64,000 nucleotides of DNA from Alphaproteobacteria bacterium (lineage in GTDB: Bacteria; Pseudomonadota; Alphaproteobacteria; Micropepsales; Micropepsaceae). Every line of letters begins with the position of its first letter. The stretch's first letter is position 1. The stretch is taken from assembly GCA_016792565.1 (NCBI GenBank), contig JAEUMK010000072.1:1-64000 (forward strand). Reading direction: 5' to 3'. The position numbers and the translations under genes are program-made. The notes under the pieces were generated by a model. It made no database searches, was not told the origin of the DNA, and worked only from the letters and a program-made list of their open reading frames with translations. This document shows positions 45,743 to 59,994 of the stretch, one piece after another.

Positions 45743-47193
<1,451 letters not shown>

Positions 47194-47197
<4 letters not shown>

Positions 47198-47673
47198 GCG
47201 AGCGGCGCGTTATCAACATCGCCGATGTCCCCATGAACCTCATCCTGGGCGGGCGCCGCTTCGCGGCGCAGGCGGGGCTCGCCGGACCGGAAATCGGTTC
47301 GACAGGCATCGGTTGCTCGGTGTTCGACGTTCCGCCGGGCATGAGCGCCTGTCCCTTTCATCGCCACCACGCGACGCACGAGCTGTTTTTCGTGCTGGAA
47401 GGCGAGGGCGAAACCCGGCTCGACGAGGCCCGCCTCCCGATCCGGCCGGGCGATCTCATCGCCGCGCCGGCCGGCAAGGAAGCCCACCAGATCGTCAATA
47501 CCGGGACGACGAACCTGCGCTATCTTGCATTTTCCGCAGAAGGCCCAGCGGACATCGTCGAATACCCTGATTCCGGCAAGCTGATGATCGAGGCCGGGAC
47601 GTGGCCCAACCGCAGCATCGAGCTGCTCGGCCGGCTGGCGCCCGCCGAATACTACGATGGCGAGGAGGCCTAG
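47194..47673 (+). CDS. Cupin-domain protein inside the suf operon
   Basis: A 159-residue protein with one cupin beta-barrel. Metal-binding motif 1 reads [20 protein letters not shown], with His and Glu ligands, and motif 2 lies in [18 protein letters not shown]. It sits between sufB (4-base overlap) and a 36-residue ORF. Cupins are very diverse and its substrate is unknown. The position inside the suf transcript suggests a role in, or regulation with, Fe-S assembly or sulfur metabolism. Confidence 0.85.
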
Positions 47674-47784
47674 ATGGCGGCGTTGTCGGACGAAACCCGG
47701 TTCGCCTCGCGCACCCTCTCCACGCGCGCCCGCTGCCTGGCGGCGCTTGACACCAACCGCGCGCGGCAGGCGCAAAACGGATGA
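47674..47784 (+). CDS. 36-residue ORF in the suf operon
   Basis: A short ORF starts at ATG 47674, directly after the cupin stop, with GAGGAGG just upstream. Its TGA (47782-47784) overlaps the ATG of the next gene. The product is MAALSDETRFASRTLSTRAR plus CLAALDTNRARQAQNG, basic and polar with one Cys. Ribosome site and coupling on both sides support translation. It could instead serve mainly to couple translation to the next gene. No family was recognised. Confidence 0.5.
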   Translation: MAALSDETRFASRTLSTRARCLAALDTNRARQAQNG

Positions 47785-48074
47785 ACTTCAACGACGGACG
47801 CTTCTGGTTCGTGCGCTCCAACGGCGGCAATGGCTCCTACCCCGTGACCCTGGAGGGCTGGGCAGTCGTGCTCGCCTTCGTTCTGGGCGTCATGGCGACG
47901 GCCGTCACGGCCTACGCGGTTCAGGTCGTCGTGCCTGAAATCCCCTGGCTCGGCTTCGCCGTCTTCGGCGTCGGCATGGCCGCCGATGCCACAGCCTTCA
48001 TCCTGATCGCCCGGTCCAAGACCGACTGGTCGATCACCGCATCGGACTATTTTTCCGGCAAGGGGACGCGTTGA
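47781..48074 (+). CDS. Two-helix membrane protein in the suf operon
   Basis: A 97-residue protein with a short N-terminus (MNFNDGRFWFVRSNGGNG), two membrane helices (GWAVVLAFVLGVMATAVTAY and LGFAVFGVGMAADATAFILI) and a polar tail. It is coupled by overlap to the 36-residue ORF upstream and its TGA shares a base with the sufC ATG. Function unknown. Similar small proteins beside Fe-S genes are not something I can name with confidence. Confidence 0.75.
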   Translation: MNFNDGRFWFVRSNGGNGSYPVTLEGWAVVLAFVLGVMATAVTAYAVQVVVPEIPWLGFAVFGVGMAADATAFILIARSKTDWSITASDYFSGKGTR

Positions 48075-48832
48075 TGTCCACGCTCATCGAAATCCGAGAT
48101 CTTCACGTCGCCGTCGGCGGCAAGGAAATCCTCAAGGGCCTCAGCCTCTCGATTCCGGCCGGCGAGGTTCACGCCGTCATGGGGCCGAACGGTTCGGGCA
48201 AGTCGACGCTCTCCTACACCATCGCCGGCCGCGAGGGGTATGAGGTCACGTCCGGCGACATTCTCTACAAGGGCGAAACCATTCTTGGCCTCGCGCCGGA
48301 AGAGCGCGCCGCGAAGGGCATCTTCCTCGCCCTCCAATACCCCATCGAAATTCCCGGCGTGAGCACCATGACCTTCCTGCGCACGGCGGTGAACGCCCAG
48401 CGCAAGGCCCGCGGACAGCAGCCGATGGATGCGGCCCAGTTCCTGCGTGCCGTCCGCGCCAGGGGCAAGGCGCTGAACGTCGGCGACGACATGCTGAAGC
48501 GCCCGCTCAACGCCGGCTTCTCGGGCGGCGAGAAGAAGCGCGCCGAGATCCTCCAGATGGCCCTCTTCGAACCGGGCTTCGCCGTGCTCGACGAGACCGA
48601 TTCCGGCCTCGACATCGACGCGCTGAAGCTGGTGGCCGAAGGCGTCAACGCCCTGCGCGCGCCGGACCGCGCGATGCTGCTCATCACCCACTACCAGCGC
48701 CTGCTCGACTACATCGTGCCCGACCGCGTGCACGTTCTGGCGGGCGGCCGCATCGTCAAGTCGGGCGGCCGCGAACTGGCGCTGGAGCTGGAGAAGTCCG
48801 GCTACGACGATATCGTCCGGGCGGCGGCATGA
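48074..48832 (+). CDS. sufC: Fe-S cluster assembly ATPase SufC
   Basis: SufC is the ABC-type ATPase that drives cluster building on SufBC2D. The 252-residue protein has Walker A GPNGSGKST, signature FSGGEKKRAEI, Walker B with AVLDETDSGLD and the H-loop ITHYQR. ATG 48074 is preferred; the TTG at 48071 belongs to the preceding gene end. It overlaps sufD by 4 bases. Confidence 0.98.
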   Translation: MSTLIEIRDLHVAVGGKEILKGLSLSIPAGEVHAVMGPNGSGKSTLSYTIAGREGYEVTSGDILYKGETILGLAPEERAAKGIFLALQYPIEIPGVSTMTFLRTAVNAQRKARGQQPMDAAQFLRAVRARGKALNVGDDMLKRPLNAGFSGGEKKRAEILQMALFEPGFAVLDETDSGLDIDALKLVAEGVNALRAPDRAMLLITHYQRLLDYIVPDRVHVLAGGRIVKSGGRELALELEKSGYDDIVRAAA

Positions 48833-50133
48833 GCGCAGCCGCGACCATCGCGGCGCGGCGGCGCGAGGCGGAAACCCGCTTCGCCGCCGAAGGCCTGCCG
48901 CATCGCCGGATCGAGGCGTGGCACTACACCGACCTGCGCCGTGCGCTGCCGGACGATCTCCACCCGCCCGCGCCGTTCGCCGGCGCCGTCATGCGGGACG
49001 GTGGGCTGACCGATCCCTTCGCGGGCGTCGAAGCCGATACGCTGGTCTTCGCCAACGGCTTCTACCGCGCTGACATCTCGCGCCTGCCCGAAACGCCGGC
49101 CATCCAGATCGCGGACCTTTCCGGCCCGCTGCCCGACTGGGCCGAGCGCGCGCTCGGCGCGTCGCGCGGCCCCGAAGCCGCGCCGATGGCCGACCTCGCA
49201 CTGGCGCGCCAGACGAGCGGGATCGCCATCCGCGTGTCGCATAACTTCCACGCCGAACGCCCGCTGCACCTCGCCTTCGTCAACCGCTCGGCGTCGGGCG
49301 AAGCGCGCCACATCCGCATCCTCCTCGTCCTCGGCACAGACGCGCATCTGACCCTGCTTGAAAGCCACGCCGGCATCCCCTTGCTCCCCCCGCAAGCGGG
49401 GGGAGACGGCGACCGCAGGTCGCCAGAGGGGGGCCAGAACGGCGGGCTCACCAATCTCGCCGTCGAACTCCACGCCGAAGCCAATGCCCGCCTCACCCAT
49501 CTGAAGATCGCTAACGACGCCGCCGACGACATCCACGTCGCCACCCTGCTCGGCACGCTCCACGCCAATGCCACCTATGACGCCGCCATCGTCGCAGGGC
49601 AGGGCGCGCTCGCCCGCCACGAGACTCAATTGAAGCTGGCGCAGCGCATGGGCCATGCCCGCATGACCGGCTTCGCCATCCTCGGCGGTCGCCAGCACGC
49701 CGACATCACCGCCGTCATCGACCACGCCGTGCGCGAAGGCCGCTCCGACCTCGTCTTCAAGAACGTCCTCGCCGGCCGCGCCCGCGGCGTCGCGCAGGGG
49801 CGCATCATCGTCCGCGAAGGCGCGATCGGCACCGACAGCCGCCAGCAGACCCGCGCGCTGCTCCTGTCGCGCACCGCCGAGGCCGACGCCAAGCCCGAAC
49901 TCGAAATCCACGCCGACGATGTCGTGTGCAGCCACGGCGCCGCGATCGGCGATCTCGACGCCGATGCGCTGTTCTATCTGCGCTCGCGCGGCATTCCGCT
50001 TGCGCAAGCCCGCGCTCTGCTCACCGAGGCCTTCCTTGAGGAGGCGCTGGACCGCTTGCCGGCCGGCCCCGGCGCCGATGCCATGCGCGCCTTCGTCCTC
50101 GCCCGCCTGCACGCGCTGGAGGCGGCGTCATGA
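48829..50133 (+). CDS. sufD: Fe-S cluster assembly protein SufD with inserted repeat
   Basis: SufD is the second large subunit of SufBC2D. The 434-residue protein has an N-terminal helical part (EAWHYTDLRRAL), the beta-helix core (LTLLESHAG, NLAVELHAEANARLTHLK) and the conserved C-terminal SHGAAIGDLDADALFYLRSR with GIPLAQARALL. About residues 186-207 (starting LLPPQAGGDGDRRSPEGGQN) are translated from an in-frame palindromic repeat and are absent from usual SufD. The insertion lies in a surface turn between strands, so function is likely kept. Confidence 0.95.
   Translation: MSAAATIAARRREAETRFAAEGLPHRRIEAWHYTDLRRALPDDLHPPAPFAGAVMRDGGLTDPFAGVEADTLVFANGFYRADISRLPETPAIQIADLSGPLPDWAERALGASRGPEAAPMADLALARQTSGIAIRVSHNFHAERPLHLAFVNRSASGEARHIRILLVLGTDAHLTLLESHAGIPLLPPQAGGDGDRRSPEGGQNGGLTNLAVELHAEANARLTHLKIANDAADDIHVATLLGTLHANATYDAAIVAGQGALARHETQLKLAQRMGHARMTGFAILGGRQHADITAVIDHAVREGRSDLVFKNVLAGRARGVAQGRIIVREGAIGTDSRQQTRALLLSRTAEADAKPELEIHADDVVCSHGAAIGDLDADALFYLRSRGIPLAQARALLTEAFLEEALDRLPAGPGADAMRAFVLARLHALEAAS
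49384..49433 (+). repeat. Palindromic repeat inserted in frame within sufD
   Basis: The element starts with the hairpin CTCCCCCC-GCAA-GGGGGGAG type (CTCCCCCCGCAAGCGGGGGG), continues with GGCGACC-GCA-GGTCGCC, and ends AGAGGGGGG. Such units are usually intergenic in this group of bacteria. Here it adds about 20 codons without breaking the frame. Confidence 0.8.
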
Positions 50134-51374
50134 ATGCGATCCTCAGGAGCGCGCCGGCCTTCGACGTCGCCAGGGTCCGCGCCGATTTTCCGATCCTTGG
50201 GCGTCAGGTCTATGGCCGCCCGCTGGTCTATCTCGACAACGCCGCCTCGGCGCAGAAGCCGCAAGCTGTCATCGACGCGATGGCCGGCTTCATGGAGAGC
50301 GGCTACGCCAACGTCCATCGCGGCGTGCACTACCTCTCGGGCACGGCGACCGACGCCTTTGAGGCCGCCCGCGACGCCGCGCAGGCCTATGTGAACGCCG
50401 GCCGCCGCGAGGAGATCGTCCTCACCCATGGCGGCACCGAGGCCTTCAACCTCGTCGCCGAGAGCTTCCTCGCGCCGCTCGTCAGGCCGGGCGACGAGAT
50501 CGTGCTCTCCGAGATGGAGCACCACGCCAACATCGTGCCGTGGCACTTCCTGCGCGAGCGCCAGGGCGCGGTGCTGAAATGGGCGCGCATCGGCGACGAC
50601 GGCGCGCTCGACATCGACCACCTTGCCGGTCTCATCGGCCCGCGTACCCGGCTCGTCGCCGTCACCCATATGTCGAACGTGCTGGGCACCGTCACGCCCG
50701 CCGCCGAGATCGTCCGCCTCGCCCACGCCAGGGGCGTGCCGGTGCTGCTCGACGGCTGCCAGGCGGCGGTTCACGCGCATGTCGACGTGCGTGCCCTCGA
50801 CTGCGACTTCTACGTCTTCTGCGCCCACAAGCTCTACGGCCCCTCCGGCATCGGCGCGCTCTACGCGAAGGCGGAGCACCTCGCCGCCATGCGCCCCTGG
50901 CAGGGCGGCGGCGACATGATCCGCGAGGTCGGCTTCGATGCCGTCACCTATGCCGACCCGCCGCACCGCTTCGAGGCGGGCACCCCGCCCATCGTCGAGG
51001 GCGTCGGCTGGAAGGCGGCGTTCGACTATCTCGCCGCCCTCGACCGCGACGGCGCCCACGCGCACGAGCAGGCGCTGCTCGCCTACGCGACGGCGGAACT
51101 GGAGAAGCTGAACTGGGTGCGCATCTTCGGCCGCGCGCCGGGCAAGGGGGCGATCGTCGCCTTCGACGTCGAGGGCGTCCACGCTCACGACCTGGCGACC
51201 ATCGTCGACCGGCGCGGCGTCGCGGTCAGGGCAGGGCACCACTGCGCCCATCCGTTGATGCAGCGCCTCGGCGTCGTCTCCACGGCGCGGGCCAGCTTCG
51301 CCTTCTACAACACCTTTGAAGAAGTGGACGCGCTGGTCGATGCGGTGCGCGCCGCGCGGGAGATGCTGACATGA
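50130..51374 (+). CDS. sufS: Cysteine desulfurase SufS
   Basis: SufS is the class II cysteine desulfurase that supplies persulfide sulfur to the SUF scaffold. The 414-residue product has YLDNAASAQKP, the NVHRGVH segment, THGGTEAFNLVA, EMEHHANIVPW, the PLP lysine in FCAHKLYGPSG, and the catalytic Cys in RAGHHCAHP. It overlaps sufD and sufT by 4 bases each. No sufE or sufU acceptor gene is visible in the operon. Confidence 0.97.
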   Translation: MNAILRSAPAFDVARVRADFPILGRQVYGRPLVYLDNAASAQKPQAVIDAMAGFMESGYANVHRGVHYLSGTATDAFEAARDAAQAYVNAGRREEIVLTHGGTEAFNLVAESFLAPLVRPGDEIVLSEMEHHANIVPWHFLRERQGAVLKWARIGDDGALDIDHLAGLIGPRTRLVAVTHMSNVLGTVTPAAEIVRLAHARGVPVLLDGCQAAVHAHVDVRALDCDFYVFCAHKLYGPSGIGALYAKAEHLAAMRPWQGGGDMIREVGFDAVTYADPPHRFEAGTPPIVEGVGWKAAFDYLAALDRDGAHAHEQALLAYATAELEKLNWVRIFGRAPGKGAIVAFDVEGVHAHDLATIVDRRGVAVRAGHHCAHPLMQRLGVVSTARASFAFYNTFEEVDALVDAVRAAREMLT

Positions 51375-51715
51375 GCGAGGCCGGAACCCATCCGCTCGGT
51401 CAGGCGAAGCTGAACGAGCTGACCGACGCCATCATCGCCGAGCTGAAGACCGTGTTCGACCCCGAGATCCCGGTCGACATCTTCGAACTCGGCCTCATCT
51501 ACAAGATCGACGTCGACGACGACATGAAGGTCGACATCGACATGACCCTCACCGCGCCCGGCTGTCCGGTCGCCGGCGAGATGCCGGGCTGGGTGCAGGA
51601 CGCGGTGAAGCGCGTGCCGGGCCTCGCCGACGTCAAGGTCAACCTTGTCTTCGATCCGCCCTGGGACCCCTCGCGCATGTCCGACGAGGCCCGCCTCGAA
51701 CTGAACATGTTTTGA
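51371..51715 (+). CDS. sufT: SUF system assembly protein SufT (MIP18/DUF59)
   Basis: A 114-residue MIP18 family protein involved in maturing Fe-S proteins. It shows DPEIPVDIFELGLIYKIDVD, the conserved Cys motif APGCPVAGEMPGW and DPPWDPSRMSDEARLEL. It overlaps sufS by 4 bases and is followed by sufA 13 bases later. Confidence 0.95.
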   Translation: MSEAGTHPLGQAKLNELTDAIIAELKTVFDPEIPVDIFELGLIYKIDVDDDMKVDIDMTLTAPGCPVAGEMPGWVQDAVKRVPGLADVKVNLVFDPPWDPSRMSDEARLELNMF

Positions 51716-51728
51716 CGCGGAGAACCCG

Positions 51729-52133
51729 ATGACCGAACCCGCCCCCCAGACAGCCGGTCCCCGCCGTCCCCGGCGCGAACGCCCCAAGGTCGTGACGCTG
51801 ACCGAGGCCGCCGCAGCGCGGGTCAGGGCGATCATGGAGGCCTCGGGCGGGCGCTACGTCGCCTTGCGCGTCGGCGTGAAGAACGGCGGCTGCGCGGGCA
51901 TGGAATACACGATGGAATACGCCGAAAGCCGCTCGGCCCTCGACGAGGCGGTCGAGGACAAGGGCGTCACCATCCTGGTCGATCCCAGGGCCGTCCTCTT
52001 CCTGCTGGGGACCGAGATGGACTACGTCACCGACAAGCTCTCGGCCCGCTTCGTCTTCAACAACCCGAATCAGACCGACGCCTGCGGCTGCGGCGAGTCG
52101 GTCACCATCGTCCCCGTAAACGGGGATGCCTGA
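51729..52133 (+). CDS. sufA: A-type Fe-S carrier protein SufA
   Basis: A 134-residue HesB/IscA-type carrier that passes clusters to target proteins. The three conserved cluster Cys are in KNGGCAGMEY and DACGCGES. An N-terminal Pro/Arg-rich tail of about 20 residues precedes the domain. It is the last gene of the suf operon. Confidence 0.96.
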   Translation: MTEPAPQTAGPRRPRRERPKVVTLTEAAAARVRAIMEASGGRYVALRVGVKNGGCAGMEYTMEYAESRSALDEAVEDKGVTILVDPRAVLFLLGTEMDYVTDKLSARFVFNNPNQTDACGCGESVTIVPVNGDA

Positions 52134-52141
52134 GGTCTGAA

Positions 52142-52160
52142 GCGCGGCTTTTCGCCGCGC
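52142..52160 (+). terminator. Hairpin after sufA
   Basis: GCGCGGC-TTTTC-GCCGCGC, a perfect 7-bp GC stem, starts 9 bases after the sufA stop. It lacks a U-tract, so termination may be partial. It marks the likely end of the suf transcript before the 806-residue protein gene. Confidence 0.45.
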
Positions 52161-52234
52161 GCACCGGCCTGCGCCGTATTTGCGCCATGGCGCTCGCGTT
52201 CCGCTAAACTGCCGGTACAGTTGAGGGGATTCCC

Positions 52235-54655
52235 ATGGTTCGTCTGTCGGACGTGCTGCCGCTGGTGCAGCCGGCGCTCGTCAAATTTGCTTCGTTCCTC
52301 GCCGGCCAACCGGTCGACGCCGCCGAGACGCTGGATGCGCTCGCCAAGCGCTATGCCGACGCCAAGGGCAAGATGGGCCGCGATGCGGTCGCGGCGAAGC
52401 TCGGCATGAACGAGGCCGAGCTGACCATGTTCGACGCGACGCTGCGCGAGGGCGTCCGCCGGGCCGGACGCCTCGCCCCCGACGCGCCCAGCTACGAACA
52501 GCGCAACGCCGTCATCGCCTCGCTGCGGCTGCTCTCGTGGCTGGAGACCATCGCCGACCGCGCCCCCGACTTCGCCTTCGCCGTCACGCTGCCCGGCGCC
52601 GACGACGAGATCGGCCGCAAGCAGATCCGCGCCCTCGAACTCATCGTCCGCAGCCTCATCACCGAGCGCTACGAGGACCAGCCCAAGCTCATCGCCCGCC
52701 TGAAGGAGCTGCTCAGCGAAAAGGTCGTCCAGCAATGGCTGACCTCGGCCGACCGCGGCGACGTGCTCTCGGGCACCACCTTCTCCGAACTCTCCAGCCT
52801 CTTCGTCTCGACCCAGGAATTCCCGAACTACGACCCGATCTACAAGGACACGCCGCTTCTCAGCCTGCTGAAGGAAAAGCGCGTCACCATCCGCAACTAC
52901 CTCGACGACATCCGCCGCATCCGCAACGTCCTCGCGCACAACAAGCGGGTGACGCCGGCGCAGATGGCGCTGCTCAACATGTACTACGACGAGCTGGTCG
53001 AGCCGCTCCAGGAGGCGCACGACCAGGGCCGCACCAAGGTCAATCCCGACCTCTATCTCGACGTCAGCCAGGAAGAGCTGAACGGCTATTTCAGCAAGCT
53101 GCACGACGACGTGAAAGCGGTGAAGGACGACATCGCCGAACTGCGCGTCGAACTCGGCGGCAAGATCGACGACGTGAAGAAGGACACGGCCGCGATCCGC
53201 GAGACCACCACGCGGATCGAGGGCGGCACGAAGTCCGCCAACCGCAAGCTCTGGGTCACGCTCGGCGGCCTCGCCGCCGTCGCCGCCGTGGTGGCGGTCA
53301 TCCTCTATGTCGTGCTTGGCACCGACAAGAAGACGGATCAGATCGCCGACACCACCAAGCGCACCGAGGAATCCACCGGCCGCATCGAGGACTCCACCGG
53401 CCGGATCGAGGACACGACCGCCCGCATCGAGGACTCCCAGGCCCGCACCGAGGCGGCGATCGGCGAGATCGCCGAAGGCTTCAAGCGCATCGACAAGAAC
53501 GGCGGCGTCATCGAGAACCCGACCCGGCCCGAGGAGCACTACCACAACGCCATCGTCTACGAGGAGCGCGGCGACGCCGCGAACGCGCGCAAGGAATACA
53601 TGGCCTTCGCCCAGGCCGACGTCGACGCCATCGACGTCTACGAGCGTTTCGCCCGCCTGCTGCGGGTGCAGGACGGCCGCGCAGGCGCGCGCGAGGTGTT
53701 CGGCGATCTCGCCGGCCGCCTGACCGCGCCCGCCATCAAGCTCGTCTACGCGATGCAGTTCGAGGACGCCGAGCGCACCAAGCGCATGGACGAGTTCATG
53801 GCCGCCAATCCGGACTATGGCCCGGGCTACTACCTGCTGGCGCAGGAATATTCCGAGGAGCGCACCGGCGGCCAATCGGTCTCCGACAAGCAGCGCGAGC
53901 TCGACCTGCTCAAGAAGTTCCTTGAGGCCGACGCCGCCGGCACGCTCATCAAGCACTTCGTCGACCAGCAGGTGCTCGGCGAGTGGCTCGACAAGTCGCG
54001 CCAGCGCGTCAAGAACCTGGAGCCCCAGCTTCAGGGCACGCGCGCCGAGCCGACGATGGTGCAGACCCGCCACAATGGCGGCTGGACCGTCTCGATCCTG
54101 ATCCCCGAGGCGGCGCTGAAGATGTGGTACCGCATCGGCGAGGAGGGCGACTTCATCGACAACGGGCAGGGCGCCTACAACGACCCGCGCACCGGCCAGC
54201 CCGCGCCCAACACCAATATCTCGCTGCCCGCCGACCAGGGCCCGACGACGATCTACATCAAATACCTCAACGCCAATGGCGAGGAGATGGGTCCGTTCGG
54301 GCTCGCCTTCGTCACCTCCTCGGCGCTGATCGAGGAACAGAAGCGCACGCTGGAGATGATCTGGACCTCCTGGATCACCATCCAGAAGAACCCCGGCAAC
54401 GACGCCCAGACGCTCGCCTACTACACGATGCTCGCCTCCTATCGCTGCGGCATCGACAAGGCGATGTACTCGATCGACAGCACGGCGCTCGACCTGCAGT
54501 TCGCGCTGCCGCCCTGCGACGAGAAGGATCCGATGGCGCTGCCGTCCGACTTCCTGCCCTTCCTCGAAGTGCCGGCCACCATCAAGTCGATGGCGGTCCA
54601 GGTCACCTACAAGGACGGCACCCAGTCCCTCGTCCGCGAATTCAAGCCGCAATAG
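52235..54655 (+). CDS. Unfamiliar membrane protein with HEPN-type Rx4H motif, heptad repeats and repeat-rich C-terminus
   Basis: An 806-residue protein. The helical N-terminal part ends in a HEPN-like segment with R230-N-V-L-A-H235 (RIRNVLAHN), the Rx4-6H motif of HEPN ribonucleases. A charged coiled stretch (about 285-335) leads to one membrane helix (about 339-361, LGGLAAVAAVVAVILYVVLG). Five heptads follow (RTEESTG, RIEDSTG, RIEDTTA, RIEDSQA, RTEAAIG), then TPR-like helices (about 425-570) and a C-terminal beta region. ATG 52235 has GAGGGG upstream. No whole-protein family was recognised; RNase activity is an inference. Confidence 0.8.
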   Translation: MVRLSDVLPLVQPALVKFASFLAGQPVDAAETLDALAKRYADAKGKMGRDAVAAKLGMNEAELTMFDATLREGVRRAGRLAPDAPSYEQRNAVIASLRLLSWLETIADRAPDFAFAVTLPGADDEIGRKQIRALELIVRSLITERYEDQPKLIARLKELLSEKVVQQWLTSADRGDVLSGTTFSELSSLFVSTQEFPNYDPIYKDTPLLSLLKEKRVTIRNYLDDIRRIRNVLAHNKRVTPAQMALLNMYYDELVEPLQEAHDQGRTKVNPDLYLDVSQEELNGYFSKLHDDVKAVKDDIAELRVELGGKIDDVKKDTAAIRETTTRIEGGTKSANRKLWVTLGGLAAVAAVVAVILYVVLGTDKKTDQIADTTKRTEESTGRIEDSTGRIEDTTARIEDSQARTEAAIGEIAEGFKRIDKNGGVIENPTRPEEHYHNAIVYEERGDAANARKEYMAFAQADVDAIDVYERFARLLRVQDGRAGAREVFGDLAGRLTAPAIKLVYAMQFEDAERTKRMDEFMAANPDYGPGYYLLAQEYSEERTGGQSVSDKQRELDLLKKFLEADAAGTLIKHFVDQQVLGEWLDKSRQRVKNLEPQLQGTRAEPTMVQTRHNGGWTVSILIPEAALKMWYRIGEEGDFIDNGQGAYNDPRTGQPAPNTNISLPADQGPTTIYIKYLNANGEEMGPFGLAFVTSSALIEEQKRTLEMIWTSWITIQKNPGNDAQTLAYYTMLASYRCGIDKAMYSIDSTALDLQFALPPCDEKDPMALPSDFLPFLEVPATIKSMAVQVTYKDGTQSLVREFKPQ

Positions 54656-54677
54656 GCGAGGGCGTCCTCTCAGTGTC

Positions 54678-54699
54678 ATGGTCCGCGCAGGCGGACCAT
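54678..54699. terminator. Hairpin between the HEPN-like gene and the CGS-family gene
   Basis: ATGGTCCGC-GCAG-GCGGACCAT, a perfect 9-bp stem with a four-base loop, starts 22 bases after the stop of the 806-residue protein gene. There is no U-run. It may end that transcript or act in the leader of the next gene. No SAM riboswitch consensus was seen. Confidence 0.45.
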
Positions 54700-54790
54700 C
54701 CACGACTTCCCTTCGCCGCACCCCTGACGCTGCGTCAGCAAATCGGCTATGAGTCCCGCGCTCGCGCCTGACGCGAGTTCCAGGAGACCT

Positions 54791-56080
54791 ATGAGCCGCT
54801 ATCGCAAGACAGACATCGCCGGACAGGCGCTTCGCCCCCAGACCCAGATGATGAGCTTCGGCTACGACCCCGCCCTGTCGGAGGGGGCGATCAAGCCGCC
54901 GCTGTTCCAGACCTCGACCTTCGTCTTCAAGTCGGCCGAGGACGGCAAGCGCCAGTTCGCGCTGCGCAAGGGCCTCGCCCAGCGCGCCCCCGGCGAGGAG
55001 TTCGGCCTCGTCTATTCGCGCTTCAACAACCCCAATCTCGAAATCCTCGAAGACCGCCTGGCGATCTGGGAACAGGCCGAAAAGGCGCTGGTCTTCGCCT
55101 CCGGCATGGCGGCGATTTCGTCCACGCTGCTCGGCCTCTCGCGGCCCGGCGACATCGTCGCCAATTCCGAACCGCTCTATGGCGGCACCGAGGGCCTCCT
55201 GCTCAACGTTATGCCGCAATTCGGCATCACCCATGCCTCGCTGCCGGTCGGCACCAGCCTCGACGAACTGGAGGCGCTGCTGCGGGCCGCCGACGCCGAG
55301 GCGGCGGAACGCGGCGGACGGCTGTCGGCGATCATGCTGGAAACCCCGGCCAACCCGACCAACGAGCTGACCGACATCGCCGGCGTCGTCGCCATTGCCA
55401 AACGGCTGGAACGCAACGGCTACCGCCCGGCGGTCTGCGTCGACAACACCTTCCTCGGGCCGATCTGGCAGAAGCCGCTGACGCTCGGCGCCGACTACGC
55501 GCTCTATTCGCTCACCAAATATGTCGGCGGCCATTCCGACATCGTCGGCGGCGCGGTGCTCGGCTCGATGGACGCGATGAAGCCGATCGCCCCGATGCGC
55601 TCCTCGCTGGGCGCGACGCTCGATCCGCACACCGCCTGGATGCTCTGCCGCAGCCTCGAAACGCTCGAACTGCGCATCAGCCGGGCGACCGAGAACGCTC
55701 GCATGGTCTGCGCCTATCTGGAGCGCCACCCCAAGGTGAAGAAGGTGCTCTGGCTCGGCAATCTGCCGCCCGGCTCCGATCAGGCCCGCATCTTCGGCGC
55801 CCAGTGCACCGGCGTCGGCTCGACCTTCTCGATCCGCGTCCATGGCGGCGAGGCGGAGGCCTTCCGCTTCCTCGACGCGCTGAAGGTGGTGAAGCTGGCG
55901 GTCAGCCTCGGCGGCACCGAAAGCCTCGCCTCGCACCCGGCGACGACCACCCATCTCGACTATCCCCCGGCCGACAAGGAGCGCTACGGCATCACCGGCG
56001 ATCTGGTGCGCATCTCCATCGGCATCGAGGACAGCCGCGACCTCATCGCCGACATCGACCAGGCCCTCGCGGCGGTCTGA
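54791..56080 (+). CDS. Cystathionine gamma-synthase family PLP enzyme
   Basis: A 429-residue Cys/Met metabolism PLP enzyme. It shows IKPPLFQTSTFVF, VYSRFNNPNLEILEDRLA, FASGMAAIS, ETPANPTNEL, VDNTFLGP and the PLP lysine in YSLTKYVGGHSDIVGG, then SLGGTESLASHPATTTH. Members include cystathionine gamma-synthase, O-acetylhomoserine sulfhydrylase and methionine gamma-lyase, and sequence alone does not decide. ATG 54791 follows AGGAG; the frame is open 14 codons further upstream. Confidence 0.92.
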   Translation: MSRYRKTDIAGQALRPQTQMMSFGYDPALSEGAIKPPLFQTSTFVFKSAEDGKRQFALRKGLAQRAPGEEFGLVYSRFNNPNLEILEDRLAIWEQAEKALVFASGMAAISSTLLGLSRPGDIVANSEPLYGGTEGLLLNVMPQFGITHASLPVGTSLDELEALLRAADAEAAERGGRLSAIMLETPANPTNELTDIAGVVAIAKRLERNGYRPAVCVDNTFLGPIWQKPLTLGADYALYSLTKYVGGHSDIVGGAVLGSMDAMKPIAPMRSSLGATLDPHTAWMLCRSLETLELRISRATENARMVCAYLERHPKVKKVLWLGNLPPGSDQARIFGAQCTGVGSTFSIRVHGGEAEAFRFLDALKVVKLAVSLGGTESLASHPATTTHLDYPPADKERYGITGDLVRISIGIEDSRDLIADIDQALAAV

Positions 56081-56089
56081 CCGGCCAAG

Positions 56090-56147
56090 CCCTTCTCCCG
56101 GCCGCGCCGGGGGAAGGGCCATGCTCCCTTCCCCCATCGGGGGAAGG
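56090..56147. repeat. Two GC-rich hairpins after the CGS-family gene
   Basis: The first hairpin (56090-56118) pairs CCCTTCTCCCGGC with GCCGGGGGAAGGG around CGC, with one mismatch. The second (56127-56147) is a perfect 9-bp stem CCTTCCCCC-ATC-GGGGGAAGG. They resemble the intergenic hairpins at 849-997. They may help end the CGS-family transcript. Confidence 0.6.
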
Positions 56148-58111: not shown

Positions 58112-58747
58112 ATGGCCCTGTTCGACCGCGACCCGCGAGAAGTCGTCAACAACATGCTGGTGCCGATGGTGGTCGAATCGACCGCCCGCGGCGAACGCGC
58201 CTACGACATCTTCTCGCGCCTCCTGAAGGAGCGCGTGATCTTCGTCACCGGCGGCGTCGAGGACGGCATGGCGACGCTGATCGCCGCGCAGCTCCTCTTT
58301 CTTGAGGCCGAGAACCCCAAGAAGGAAATCTCGATGTACATCAACTCGCCGGGCGGCGTGGTGACGTCGGGCCTCGCGATCTACGACACCATGCAGTACA
58401 TCCGCTGCCCGATCACCACGGTCTGCATCGGCCAGGCGGCCAGCGCCGCCTCGTGGCTGCTGGCGGCGGGGCAGAAGGGCCAGCGTTTCGCGCTGCCCAA
58501 CGCCCGCGTCATGCTGCACCAGCCCTCCGGCGGTTATTCGGGCCAGGCCACCGACATGGCCCGTTATGCCGAGGAGATCGTCAAGATCAAGCGGCGGCTG
58601 AACGAGATCTATGCCCGCCATACCGGCCAGCCGCTCGAGGTCATCGAGAAGATGCTGGACCGCGACAAGTTCCTGACCCCGACCGAGGCCAAGGAACTTG
58701 GCCTGATCGACGAGGTCTTCGAGAAGCGTCCGGGCGCCGAGGCCTGA
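58112..58747 (+). CDS. clpP: ATP-dependent Clp protease proteolytic subunit
   Basis: ClpP forms the 14-subunit serine protease chamber that works with ClpX or ClpA. The 211-residue product has [18 protein letters not shown], the catalytic Ser in [12 protein letters not shown], His in [11 protein letters not shown] and the catalytic Asp in [16 protein letters not shown] box lies 42 bases before the start. tig is 61 bases upstream. Confidence 0.98.
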
Positions 58748-58782: not shown

Positions 58783-58807
58783 CATGGCCGGGCACTGCCC
58801 GGCCATG
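58783..58807 (+). terminator. Hairpin after clpP
   Basis: A perfect 11-bp stem (CATGGCCGGGC with GCCCGGCCATG) encloses an ACT loop, 36 bases after the clpP stop, followed by GCATTT. The U-tract is short, so it is a likely but not certain terminator. Confidence 0.6.
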
Positions 58808-58821
58808 GCATTTGGGGACCG

Positions 58822-59994
58822 ATGTCGAATCCGTTCCGATCAGCGCTGTTCGCCTGCGCCGCCGCGCTCCTCGCCGGCGCCGCCTCGGCCGCCGTCGTCG
58901 CCTACGACTACGTCACGCTGGAGGTGCCGGACGGCTGGAGCCGCCTGGACGAGCGGGCCATGGCGGTCTTCGCCTCTCCCGACGGCGCCCTGACGGTGAC
59001 TGTGCTCACCCGTCTCGGCGACGACGATCCTGACGACGCCCTGGAGAGCTTCGTCGAGGCCGCCGAAGCCGGCGATCGGGCCGCCGCGCGTGGCGAGGCG
59101 GAAGAGGTGCACGAGGAGCCGTTCGAACTCTGGCGCCAGGAAACGGCGACCCGTCTGTCCGACGGCCGCATTGTCCGGCGGCTCTACGAGTCGGCCGACG
59201 CCGCCGGCACCGCGACCATCGTCGCCGTCTCGGGCGAGCAGGCGGCGTGGGACCGCGACGGCGCGGACGCGCGGGCCATGCTCGCCTCGCTCTTCGTGGC
59301 CGCGCCCGACGCCGCACCGCCGCCGGCTCTGGCCGTCGATGCCCTACCGGGCGACGGCGGCATCGAGGGCCTCTACATGGCGACCGGCCGCCGGTCCTTC
59401 CTTGCTGCGGCGACCAGGGCTTGGACCGAGGGCGAGCGCACCGAGGTCCTCCTGTTCGATCCTCTGGGCGAGGTCTATCGCGGCGCCCCCCGTCGGCTCG
59501 ATGCGACGGCCTTCGAGGCCTGCGCGGGCGCGCAGGCCTGGCGCTGCGGGCGCTACCGGATCGAGGGCGCCGAGATCAACCTGCGCTGGGCGGACGGAAC
59601 GACCGAGCGCCGGACGTTTGCCGAGGACGGCGTCGAGCTCCGTCTCGGCGGGCGCAGCTATCGACGCGCGCCGGCCCGGAGTGCGAACCCAGAAGGGCTC
59701 TACGAGGCGCGCGACGACTTCAATGCCGGACTGGCCGGCGCGGCCGGCGCGAAGGCGTCCGTCCGTTTTCAGGACGACGGCAGGATCCTGATCGAGGGCT
59801 TCGAATCGTTCCGCGCCGCCCACGCCGGCGGCTTCGCGTCCGGGGCTTCGGCCGGCGGTCGATTCAAGGTCGATGGCCGCTCGATGTCGCTGGTCTATGT
59901 CAGGGGCGCGTCGGAAGTACTTGGTTTCGCTGAATTTCCAGACAGCGACGGCGCTCTGATCCTGCTCGGCGGCATGGTCTTCGAACGGCGTTGA
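58822..59994 (+). CDS. Secreted protein of unknown function
   Basis: A 390-residue exported protein inserted between clpP and clpX. The signal peptide is NPFRSALFACAAALLAGAAS, with cleavage near SAAVVAY. The mature part is acidic and beta-rich. The second half looks repetitive, with two similar segments starting IEGLYMATGRR and PEGLYEARDDFN, each followed by strands rich in Arg and Gly. Two Cys (EACAGAQ, WRCGRYR) may pair. No family was recognised. Confidence 0.75.
   Translation: MSNPFRSALFACAAALLAGAASAAVVAYDYVTLEVPDGWSRLDERAMAVFASPDGALTVTVLTRLGDDDPDDALESFVEAAEAGDRAAARGEAEEVHEEPFELWRQETATRLSDGRIVRRLYESADAAGTATIVAVSGEQAAWDRDGADARAMLASLFVAAPDAAPPPALAVDALPGDGGIEGLYMATGRRSFLAAATRAWTEGERTEVLLFDPLGEVYRGAPRRLDATAFEACAGAQAWRCGRYRIEGAEINLRWADGTTERRTFAEDGVELRLGGRSYRRAPARSANPEGLYEARDDFNAGLAGAAGAKASVRFQDDGRILIEGFESFRAAHAGGFASGASAGGRFKVDGRSMSLVYVRGASEVLGFAEFPDSDGALILLGGMVFERR

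Follow-up and report, generated by a model that had tools for sequence, protein, structure and literature searches.

A membrane HEPN protein of Micropepsaceae and its predicted periplasmic sensor module, which recurs on cyclases and caspases

The window, i.e., the whole stretch of DNA that was analysed, comprises 64,000 nucleotides (positions 1 to 64,000 of contig JAEUMK010000072.1, assembly GCA_016792565.1) of an alphaproteobacterium of the family Micropepsaceae. Behind its suf operon lies a gene for a protein in which a HEPN domain, a single membrane helix and a large C-terminal part follow each other, and which we read as a putative transmembrane receptor with ribonuclease (RNase) output. 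An earlier note, made from the letters of the window, had pointed to this gene. The gene and the parts of its product are listed here; TPR stands for tetratricopeptide repeat, FnIII for fibronectin type III, Ig for immunoglobulin and pLDDT for the predicted local distance difference test score.

52235..54655, plus strand: gene for the HEPN, membrane helix and envelope sensor protein, 806 amino acids (open reading frame call and translation)
52358..53047, plus strand: HEPN_STY4199 domain, residues 42-271, predicted cytosolic (PF18729, E 4.8e-49; pLDDT 83-96 per ten-residue block over residues 1-290)
52922..52939, plus strand: Rx4H motif R230-N231-V-L-A-H235, where helix 215-234 ends and the loop leading to helix 241-263 begins
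53069..53239, plus strand: long helix, predicted cytosolic, residues ~279-335, running to the membrane (model helices 279-306 and 312-347; pLDDT below 50 from about residue 299 on)
53246..53317, plus strand: single membrane helix, residues 338-361 (hydropathy)
53342..53488, plus strand: seven consecutive 7-residue units, residues 370-418, heptads on the predicted periplasmic side (periodicity)
53519..54040, plus strand: TPR-like sensor part, residues ~429-602 (structure model against a designed TPR)
54050..54652, plus strand: strand-rich sensor part, residues ~606-806, probably FnIII/Ig-like (model; FnIII/Ig-like chains among the Foldseek matches)
54446..54448, plus strand: Cys738, conserved together with Cys761; probable disulphide
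54515..54517, plus strand: Cys761, conserved together with Cys738

The gene is kept over its full length in three congeneric genomes (74-78% identity). A minus-strand open reading frame at 52070..56137 (1355 amino acids), antisense to the HEPN gene and its neighbour, was rejected as a real gene because the plus frame is conserved in the three other genomes; it is taken as a by-product of the high G+C content. The membrane helix and the regular heptads of the earlier note are both there. The hydropathy maximum in a 19-residue window is 2.73 and starts at residue 343, as for one strongly hydrophobic helix, and the heptad units from residue 370 read IADTTKR TEESTGR IEDSTGR IEDTTAR IEDSQAR TEAAIGE IAEGFKR, with 20 identities at spacing 7, a number reached in 0 of 5000 shuffles. 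In the alignment with the congener's protein L003 a gap of exactly 7 residues falls in this region. The part after the membrane helix, about 445 residues with heptads, TPR-like and beta domains, had been called repeat-rich. This is right for residues ~429-602, which align to a designed TPR (VIA Z 12.0, root mean square deviation (rmsd) 4.4, 142 residues aligned, where a Z of 12 in repeat proteins can reflect merely a common arrangement; Foldseek E ~1e-4), and the Pfam TPR models barely match the protein (E 5.1). It is not right for residues 607-806, which form strand-rich domains and no repeats.

The stretch RIRNVLAHN, earlier recognised as a HEPN motif, lies within a match to the Pfam family HEPN_STY4199 that scores 167.6 bits against a cut-off of 25. 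R230-N231-x3-H235 is the sole Rx4H of the protein and agrees with the HEPN pattern Rx4-6H, the residue after R being the polar N. The pattern R[NDH]x3H turns up in 258 of 5000 shuffles of the protein, so the short motif alone is weak, and a chance motif was rejected on the strength of the match to the whole PF18729 domain. The isolated core, residues 166-275, still matches HEPN_STY4199 (E 2.7e-28). Abi_2 matches it as well (E 5e-4), and there are weak matches to DUF4145, RiboL-PSP-HEPN and Swt1-HEPN (E 0.08-0.12); all of these alignments span the motif and stay below the cut-off of their own model, and that several HEPN-related models align there supports the HEPN reading. With the whole protein Abi_2 reaches E 3.8e-5, just under the Pfam cut-off.

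AlphaFold gives a confident all-helical domain for residues 1-290 (mean pLDDT 83.4 over 348 residues, 38 sequences). In this model R230 stands near the end of its helix and H235 opens the loop 235-240, and the survey of Anantharaman et al. (2013, PMC3710099) places the motif, in its description of the HEPN fold, at such a helix end and loop start. The second feature described there, Ex3[KR] in an earlier helix, corresponds to E135-R139 in helix 124-144; the acid and the base are found in 51 of 67 sequences. The two best matches among solved structures are Csm6 HEPN RNases, which align over residues 121-265 (101-117 residues, rmsd 3.4-3.8) at Z 5.2, a level that helical bundles reach by chance. 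The fold comparison is thus weak evidence, though in favour of HEPN; sequence searches gave no convincing solved relative of the protein.

Full-length relatives were found in four of the five genomes of the genus, the window's own included. The same four are the only matches of the HEPN family model among 96 genomes of the order; in the class it matches 1 of 385 genomes, the window's own, and in the phylum 7 of 398, the other six coming from one family and carrying proteins of enterobacterial type. The congener without the gene (G001) is uninformative, since close orthologs of sufA and of the downstream gene are also missing there (best 34% and 39%). A scan of named genomes, with patterns derived from an alignment with enterobacterial members so that other branches may be missed, collected 66 loci. 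Three are alphaproteobacterial and full-length (L017, L018 and L019, the latter from strain SO-S41) and belong to the same three congeners as in the genus search; the other 63 are of enterobacterial type and include near-copies and one fragment of 194 residues (L081). All but this fragment (62/63) have a membrane helix after the PF18729 domain. One record in this group, L055, is labelled Chryseobacterium; its gene is of the enterobacterial STY4199 type, and label or assembly is probably wrong.

The earlier note had proposed R230 and H235 as the residues whose conservation should be looked at. Over the 66 loci R230 is conserved in 65, N231 in 64, R227 in 66 and H235 in 4. The arginine thus behaves as expected of a motif residue. 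The histidine does so inside the genus, where it is kept in all three other alphaproteobacterial proteins and RN-x3-H is complete in 4/4 sequences, and fails outside it: among the enterobacterial-type loci one protein, from Cedecea, has H at R+5, ten have H at R+6, and 52 have none at R+5 to R+7. The Salmonella ortholog reads RNEVIAR. As judged from these alignments, the window's lineage has this form of the active site in full, and most of the enterobacterial branch has it only in part. Beyond the membrane helix, 41 of the 63 enterobacterial-type proteins have the H of an R-x6-H stretch which has no counterpart in the window protein.

The two ends of the protein evolve differently. The ratio of nonsynonymous to synonymous substitutions (dN/dS) against L017, L018 and L019 is 0.056, 0.059 and 0.115 for residues 166-275 (dS 0.38-0.52), and 0.56, 0.57 and 0.71 for residues 606-806 (dS 0.54-0.60). 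These values were obtained by a simple counting method on genes of high G+C content, and the contrast therefore weighs more than the values themselves. The enzyme end is held fixed and the outer beta part changes fast, which could fit a contact surface.

The C-terminal ~390 residues are, by prediction, a modular periplasmic sensor, which is new here. The last 181 residues were searched against 289 genomes of the class (8 matching, two of them dropped as weak), and a profile of the outer part against 385 genomes of the class (8 matching, own genome included and one dropped as generic). The most telling match (L091) has a class III cyclase domain (PF00211, E 5.7e-12), a membrane helix and then the module, with 38% identity over 392 residues; against the genome bearing this cyclase the last 181 residues alone give E 8.5e-30. 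An exported-looking copy of the TPR part follows a leader-like stretch in L093, which ends at the contig end. Three small proteins of one other family (L094-L096) hold little more than the last 100 sensor residues, and two of them (L094, L096) begin with a hydrophobic stretch as seen by eye; a Cys/Met-metabolism gene dependent on pyridoxal phosphate (PLP) lies within ~2 kb of L095 and L096. L114 has a leader, a caspase domain (PF00656, E 4.2e-31) and then the beta part. Leaders were judged by hydropathy and by eye, without a signal-peptide program. It is the strand-rich part that the window protein shares with these caspases and with the small exported proteins. Candidates dropped as chance or generic TPR matches were L097 (genome G284), L098 (G140, with one internal stop), L107 and L115 (G056), L112 (G022) and L113 (G033).

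In two families the module is frequent: 30 of 100 genomes in the family of L114 (G393) and 21 of 99 in another (G223). The architecture was determined for 21 of the 30 matching genomes in the former (20 loci and L114) and for all 21 in the latter. The examined loci of G393 are caspases throughout (21/21), and those of G223 are 18 cyclases and 3 caspases. All 17 cyclases with the full module keep the motifs of the catalytic site and carry a hydrophobic helix ahead of the sensor, and all 24 caspases keep GHG and DACR, the motifs of the histidine/cysteine dyad, and have a hydrophobic stretch ahead of the caspase domain. The assignment was by Pfam for L091 and L114 and by motif for the others, L138 and L154 giving sub-threshold NCBIfam matches as well; above the cut-off NCBIfam matched none of the window protein, the enterobacterial-type protein P0002, L138, L114, L154 and L096. 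The 18th cyclase-like locus (L173) has a membrane helix and the TPR part but no beta part, and the third of its cyclase motifs deviates.

The only cysteines among the 806 residues are 738 and 761, and they belong to the outer part. The two are kept together in 46 of 49 sequences, the window's included; the count was made on 50 rows, L093 having no letters there, L092 lacks both, and L152 and L153 are counted as without the second, yet have a Cys shortly after that column. In a tree of the beta part the HEPN, cyclase and caspase proteins each form one group, the caspase group with weak support (79/67), and the joining order of the three groups is not settled. With one group per output, a single origin of each fusion is possible within the sample. 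As to mobile elements, an origin from phage or plasmid was rejected: 2 plasmid and 4 phage-collection records matched, all through the HEPN part only. Among plasmids neither the outer part of one caspase-type protein nor that of one cyclase-type protein had a match, a scan of viral contigs with the sensor, though not with the HEPN part, found no relative of it, and a PHROGs search gave only a coiled-coil match, to a tape-measure family.

These homologues bear on topology. The earlier note had made its idea of signalling depend on the HEPN part lying inside and the rest outside, and this arrangement gains support: a cytosolic HEPN part and a periplasmic sensor are expected from the homologues of the sensor, which either come after an export leader or are separated by a membrane helix from a nucleotide cyclase. 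That cyclases and caspases share the sensor also favours signalling from sensor to output.

Our preferred reading is a one-component transmembrane receptor with RNase output, to which we give a probability of roughly 0.6. It builds on three things read from sequence: the order of the domains, the occurrence of the sensor on cyclases, caspases and exported proteins as well, and the constraint on the HEPN core. The TPR and beta module would bind a signal in the periplasm, and the signal would travel by way of the heptads in the periplasm, the helix in the membrane and the long helix in the cytosol and alter the pairing of two cytosolic HEPN domains, whereby RNA cleavage would be switched on or off. 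HEPN RNases act as dimers in which the motifs of the two chains meet at the interface, and class III cyclases act as dimers too; because both outputs work as dimers, one sensor could drive either. We infer dimer control, RNase activity, what the signal is and which way it acts, and the biological purpose, which would most likely be a stress-triggered slow-down.

Several observations weigh against this receptor reading. Foldseek found no match in the PDB for the HEPN model at E <= 0.001, and the Csm6 matches are, as said, at a level attainable by chance. The wider family can do without this form of the active site, seeing that 52 of the 63 enterobacterial-type loci and the Salmonella ortholog are without the motif histidine. 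The charges flanking the membrane helix, viewed by eye, leave the orientation undecided. Proline-rich linkers, and not heptads, connect the sensor in the cyclases, so signal transmission need not be the same in them. The sensor model is weak (predicted template modelling score 0.48, built on 4 sequences, poorest after ~residue 695). Finally, the 2013 paper of Anantharaman et al. (PMC3710099), whose table calls the STY4199 group active, in its text gives a STY4199-type Salmonella protein the order helical domain, membrane helix, HEPN, which is reversed relative to the Pfam assignment (PF18729 before the helix) here and in two enterobacterial proteins. We file the window protein under PF18729 and not under the wording of that order; the main text does not tell which stretch its authors meant.

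The features beside the HEPN gene are needed for the alternatives.

45743..52133, plus strand: suf operon (sufB, cupin, open reading frame of 97 amino acids, sufC, sufD, sufS, sufT/DUF59, sufA), directly upstream
52142..52160, plus strand: G+C-rich hairpin following sufA, where the suf transcript may end (z -2.34; the terminator scan did not report it)
54749..56080, plus strand: Cys/Met-metabolism PLP enzyme, directly downstream

The gap from sufA to the HEPN gene is 101 nucleotides and that to the PLP gene about 90-135, depending on the start of the latter. The window's neighbours are housekeeping genes: suf, the PLP gene, tig, clpP and clpX. The order suf, HEPN, PLP, tig is kept in L017 and L019, the latter with extra genes after sufA and before tig; on the short contig of L018, suf, HEPN and part of the PLP gene are kept. 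No clustering with defence or mobile genes was seen at the locus. PADLOC had no match for 9 of 10 neighbouring proteins and matched ClpX by its generic AAA domain; for the window protein the best hit in PADLOC-DB is AbiD, a weak one (E 0.0028, 15.4 bits).

The HEPN part might be non-catalytic and bind RNA or protein, the whole being a scaffold or receptor that is anchored in the membrane and keeps RNA or a partner there. This would explain why most enterobacterial-type proteins, that of Salmonella among them, dispense with the histidine though R230 and N231 are almost always kept. We nevertheless consider it unlikely: the window's lineage has RN-x3-H without exception, the dN/dS of its HEPN core is 0.06-0.12, and as H occurs at R+5 or R+6 in 11 enterobacterial-type loci the form with H may be the ancestral one.

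The earlier note had thought of a defence system, and the corresponding alternative is anti-phage abortive infection, in which a phage would be sensed at the envelope and growth stopped by RNA cleavage. HEPN RNases are described as common defence effectors (PMC3710099), the Abi_2 and AbiD matches (E 3.8e-5 and 0.0028) point weakly the same way, and a fast-evolving outer part would suit it. A defence role is not borne out by the housekeeping neighbourhood, however: the suf/PLP/tig placement is the same in L017 and L019, the single PADLOC match is ClpX, the enterobacterial homologues adjoin a trehalase gene (two records), and viral contigs held no relative of the sensor. On this evidence abortive infection is quite improbable. 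Far less probable still is a toxin of a toxin-antitoxin pair. HEPN toxins do exist (PMC3710099), but the window offers no space for an antitoxin gene next to the HEPN gene, either upstream (101 nucleotides) or downstream (~90-135; the wider gaps of the congeners were not surveyed), in line with the earlier remark that none is visible, and size and membrane sensor are unlike those of small toxins of this kind.

The suf neighbourhood recurs elsewhere. In the G393 family caspase-type sensor genes lie ~3-7 kb downstream of sufA on the same strand at 15 of 20 loci (L174-L193) and at L114, one of the five exceptions being a short contig; the cyclase-type loci show this placement in 0 of 18, some of them ending at contig ends. 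The placement within one family may go back to one inherited arrangement. A position behind sufA in two distant lineages suggests either that the sensor gene stood there first and exchanged its output domain or that there is a link between sensing and iron-sulphur or redox stress. From here a wider idea can be put forward, tentatively and as one we rather doubt: a common periplasmic alarm-sensor (TPR and disulphide-bearing beta part) would be wired to a cyclase, to an envelope caspase and, in this genus alone so far, to HEPN RNA cleavage, making the window protein a counterpart of IRE1 in plan, possibly tied to iron-sulphur or redox stress through its position at suf. If so, it would respond to envelope stress by cutting RNA directly, with no transcriptional step in between.

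IRE1, the eukaryotic stress receptor of the endoplasmic reticulum, has the same plan of a sensor outside, one membrane helix and an RNase of the HEPN superfamily inside. The likeness is of plan only; the sensor is unrelated, Pfam matched no kinase domain in the window protein, unlike IRE1, and the order of the domains along the IRE1 chain is reversed. The placing of the KEN domain in the HEPN superfamily, and the parallel between Ire1 and membrane HEPN proteins, were already drawn in the 2013 survey (PMC3710099). Section 15 of the same paper proposes that membrane HEPN proteins may turn outside stimuli into RNA degradation, and such proteins, STY4199 included, are treated there, so that a system "not yet described", as the earlier note had it, is too much to claim. 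What is new here is the sensor module, the swapping of outputs, the Cys pair, the contrast in selection and the pattern of the motif histidine. Among the literature matches listed, and as far as their text goes, no paper deals with this fusion of HEPN and sensor; STM3604 occurs in one table entry.

Compared with the known STY4199-like proteins, the window protein has the same N-terminal HEPN_STY4199 domain (1-281 in P0002, 1-282 in the Salmonella ortholog), one membrane helix and a C-terminal part, at 24-28% identity in the alignment and 28-39% in the best segments. It differs in what follows the helix, which in the STY4199-like proteins is shorter (166-209 residues, median 176) and without detected similarity to the window's outer part, the matches ending by ~residue 384; they also mostly lack the motif histidine. 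The alphaproteobacterial class III cyclases (L091, L138-L153) share the order output, membrane helix, TPR and beta module, and the Cys pair in 15 of 17 as aligned, and differ by a cyclic-nucleotide output and the proline-rich linker in place of heptads. The caspases (Peptidase_C14; L114, L118-L137, L154-L156) share the beta module with its Cys pair and, in one family, mostly the position downstream of sufA; their whole protein looks exported and has no TPR part, and the output is a protease rather than an RNase.

Since the outer part can be recognised and also occurs on other enzymes, a read-out by cyclic nucleotide or protease offers a way to look for the ligand, and a sensor-cyclase chimera can report on the signal. 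The genus has a cultured member, SO-S41, described as a forest-soil isolate with a complete genome (PMC8297455, PMC9769597), and the receptor prediction can therefore be tested.

Some minor observations concern the neighbours. The cupin gene at 47194-47673 inside the suf operon, between sufB and the reading frame of 97 amino acids, has no counterpart above the search cut-off in L017 or L019. The open reading frame at 58453 has no Pfam match; it encloses a protein at ~58800-59994, between clpP and clpX, which has an apparent signal peptide (MSNPFRSALFACAAALLAGAASA, as seen by eye).

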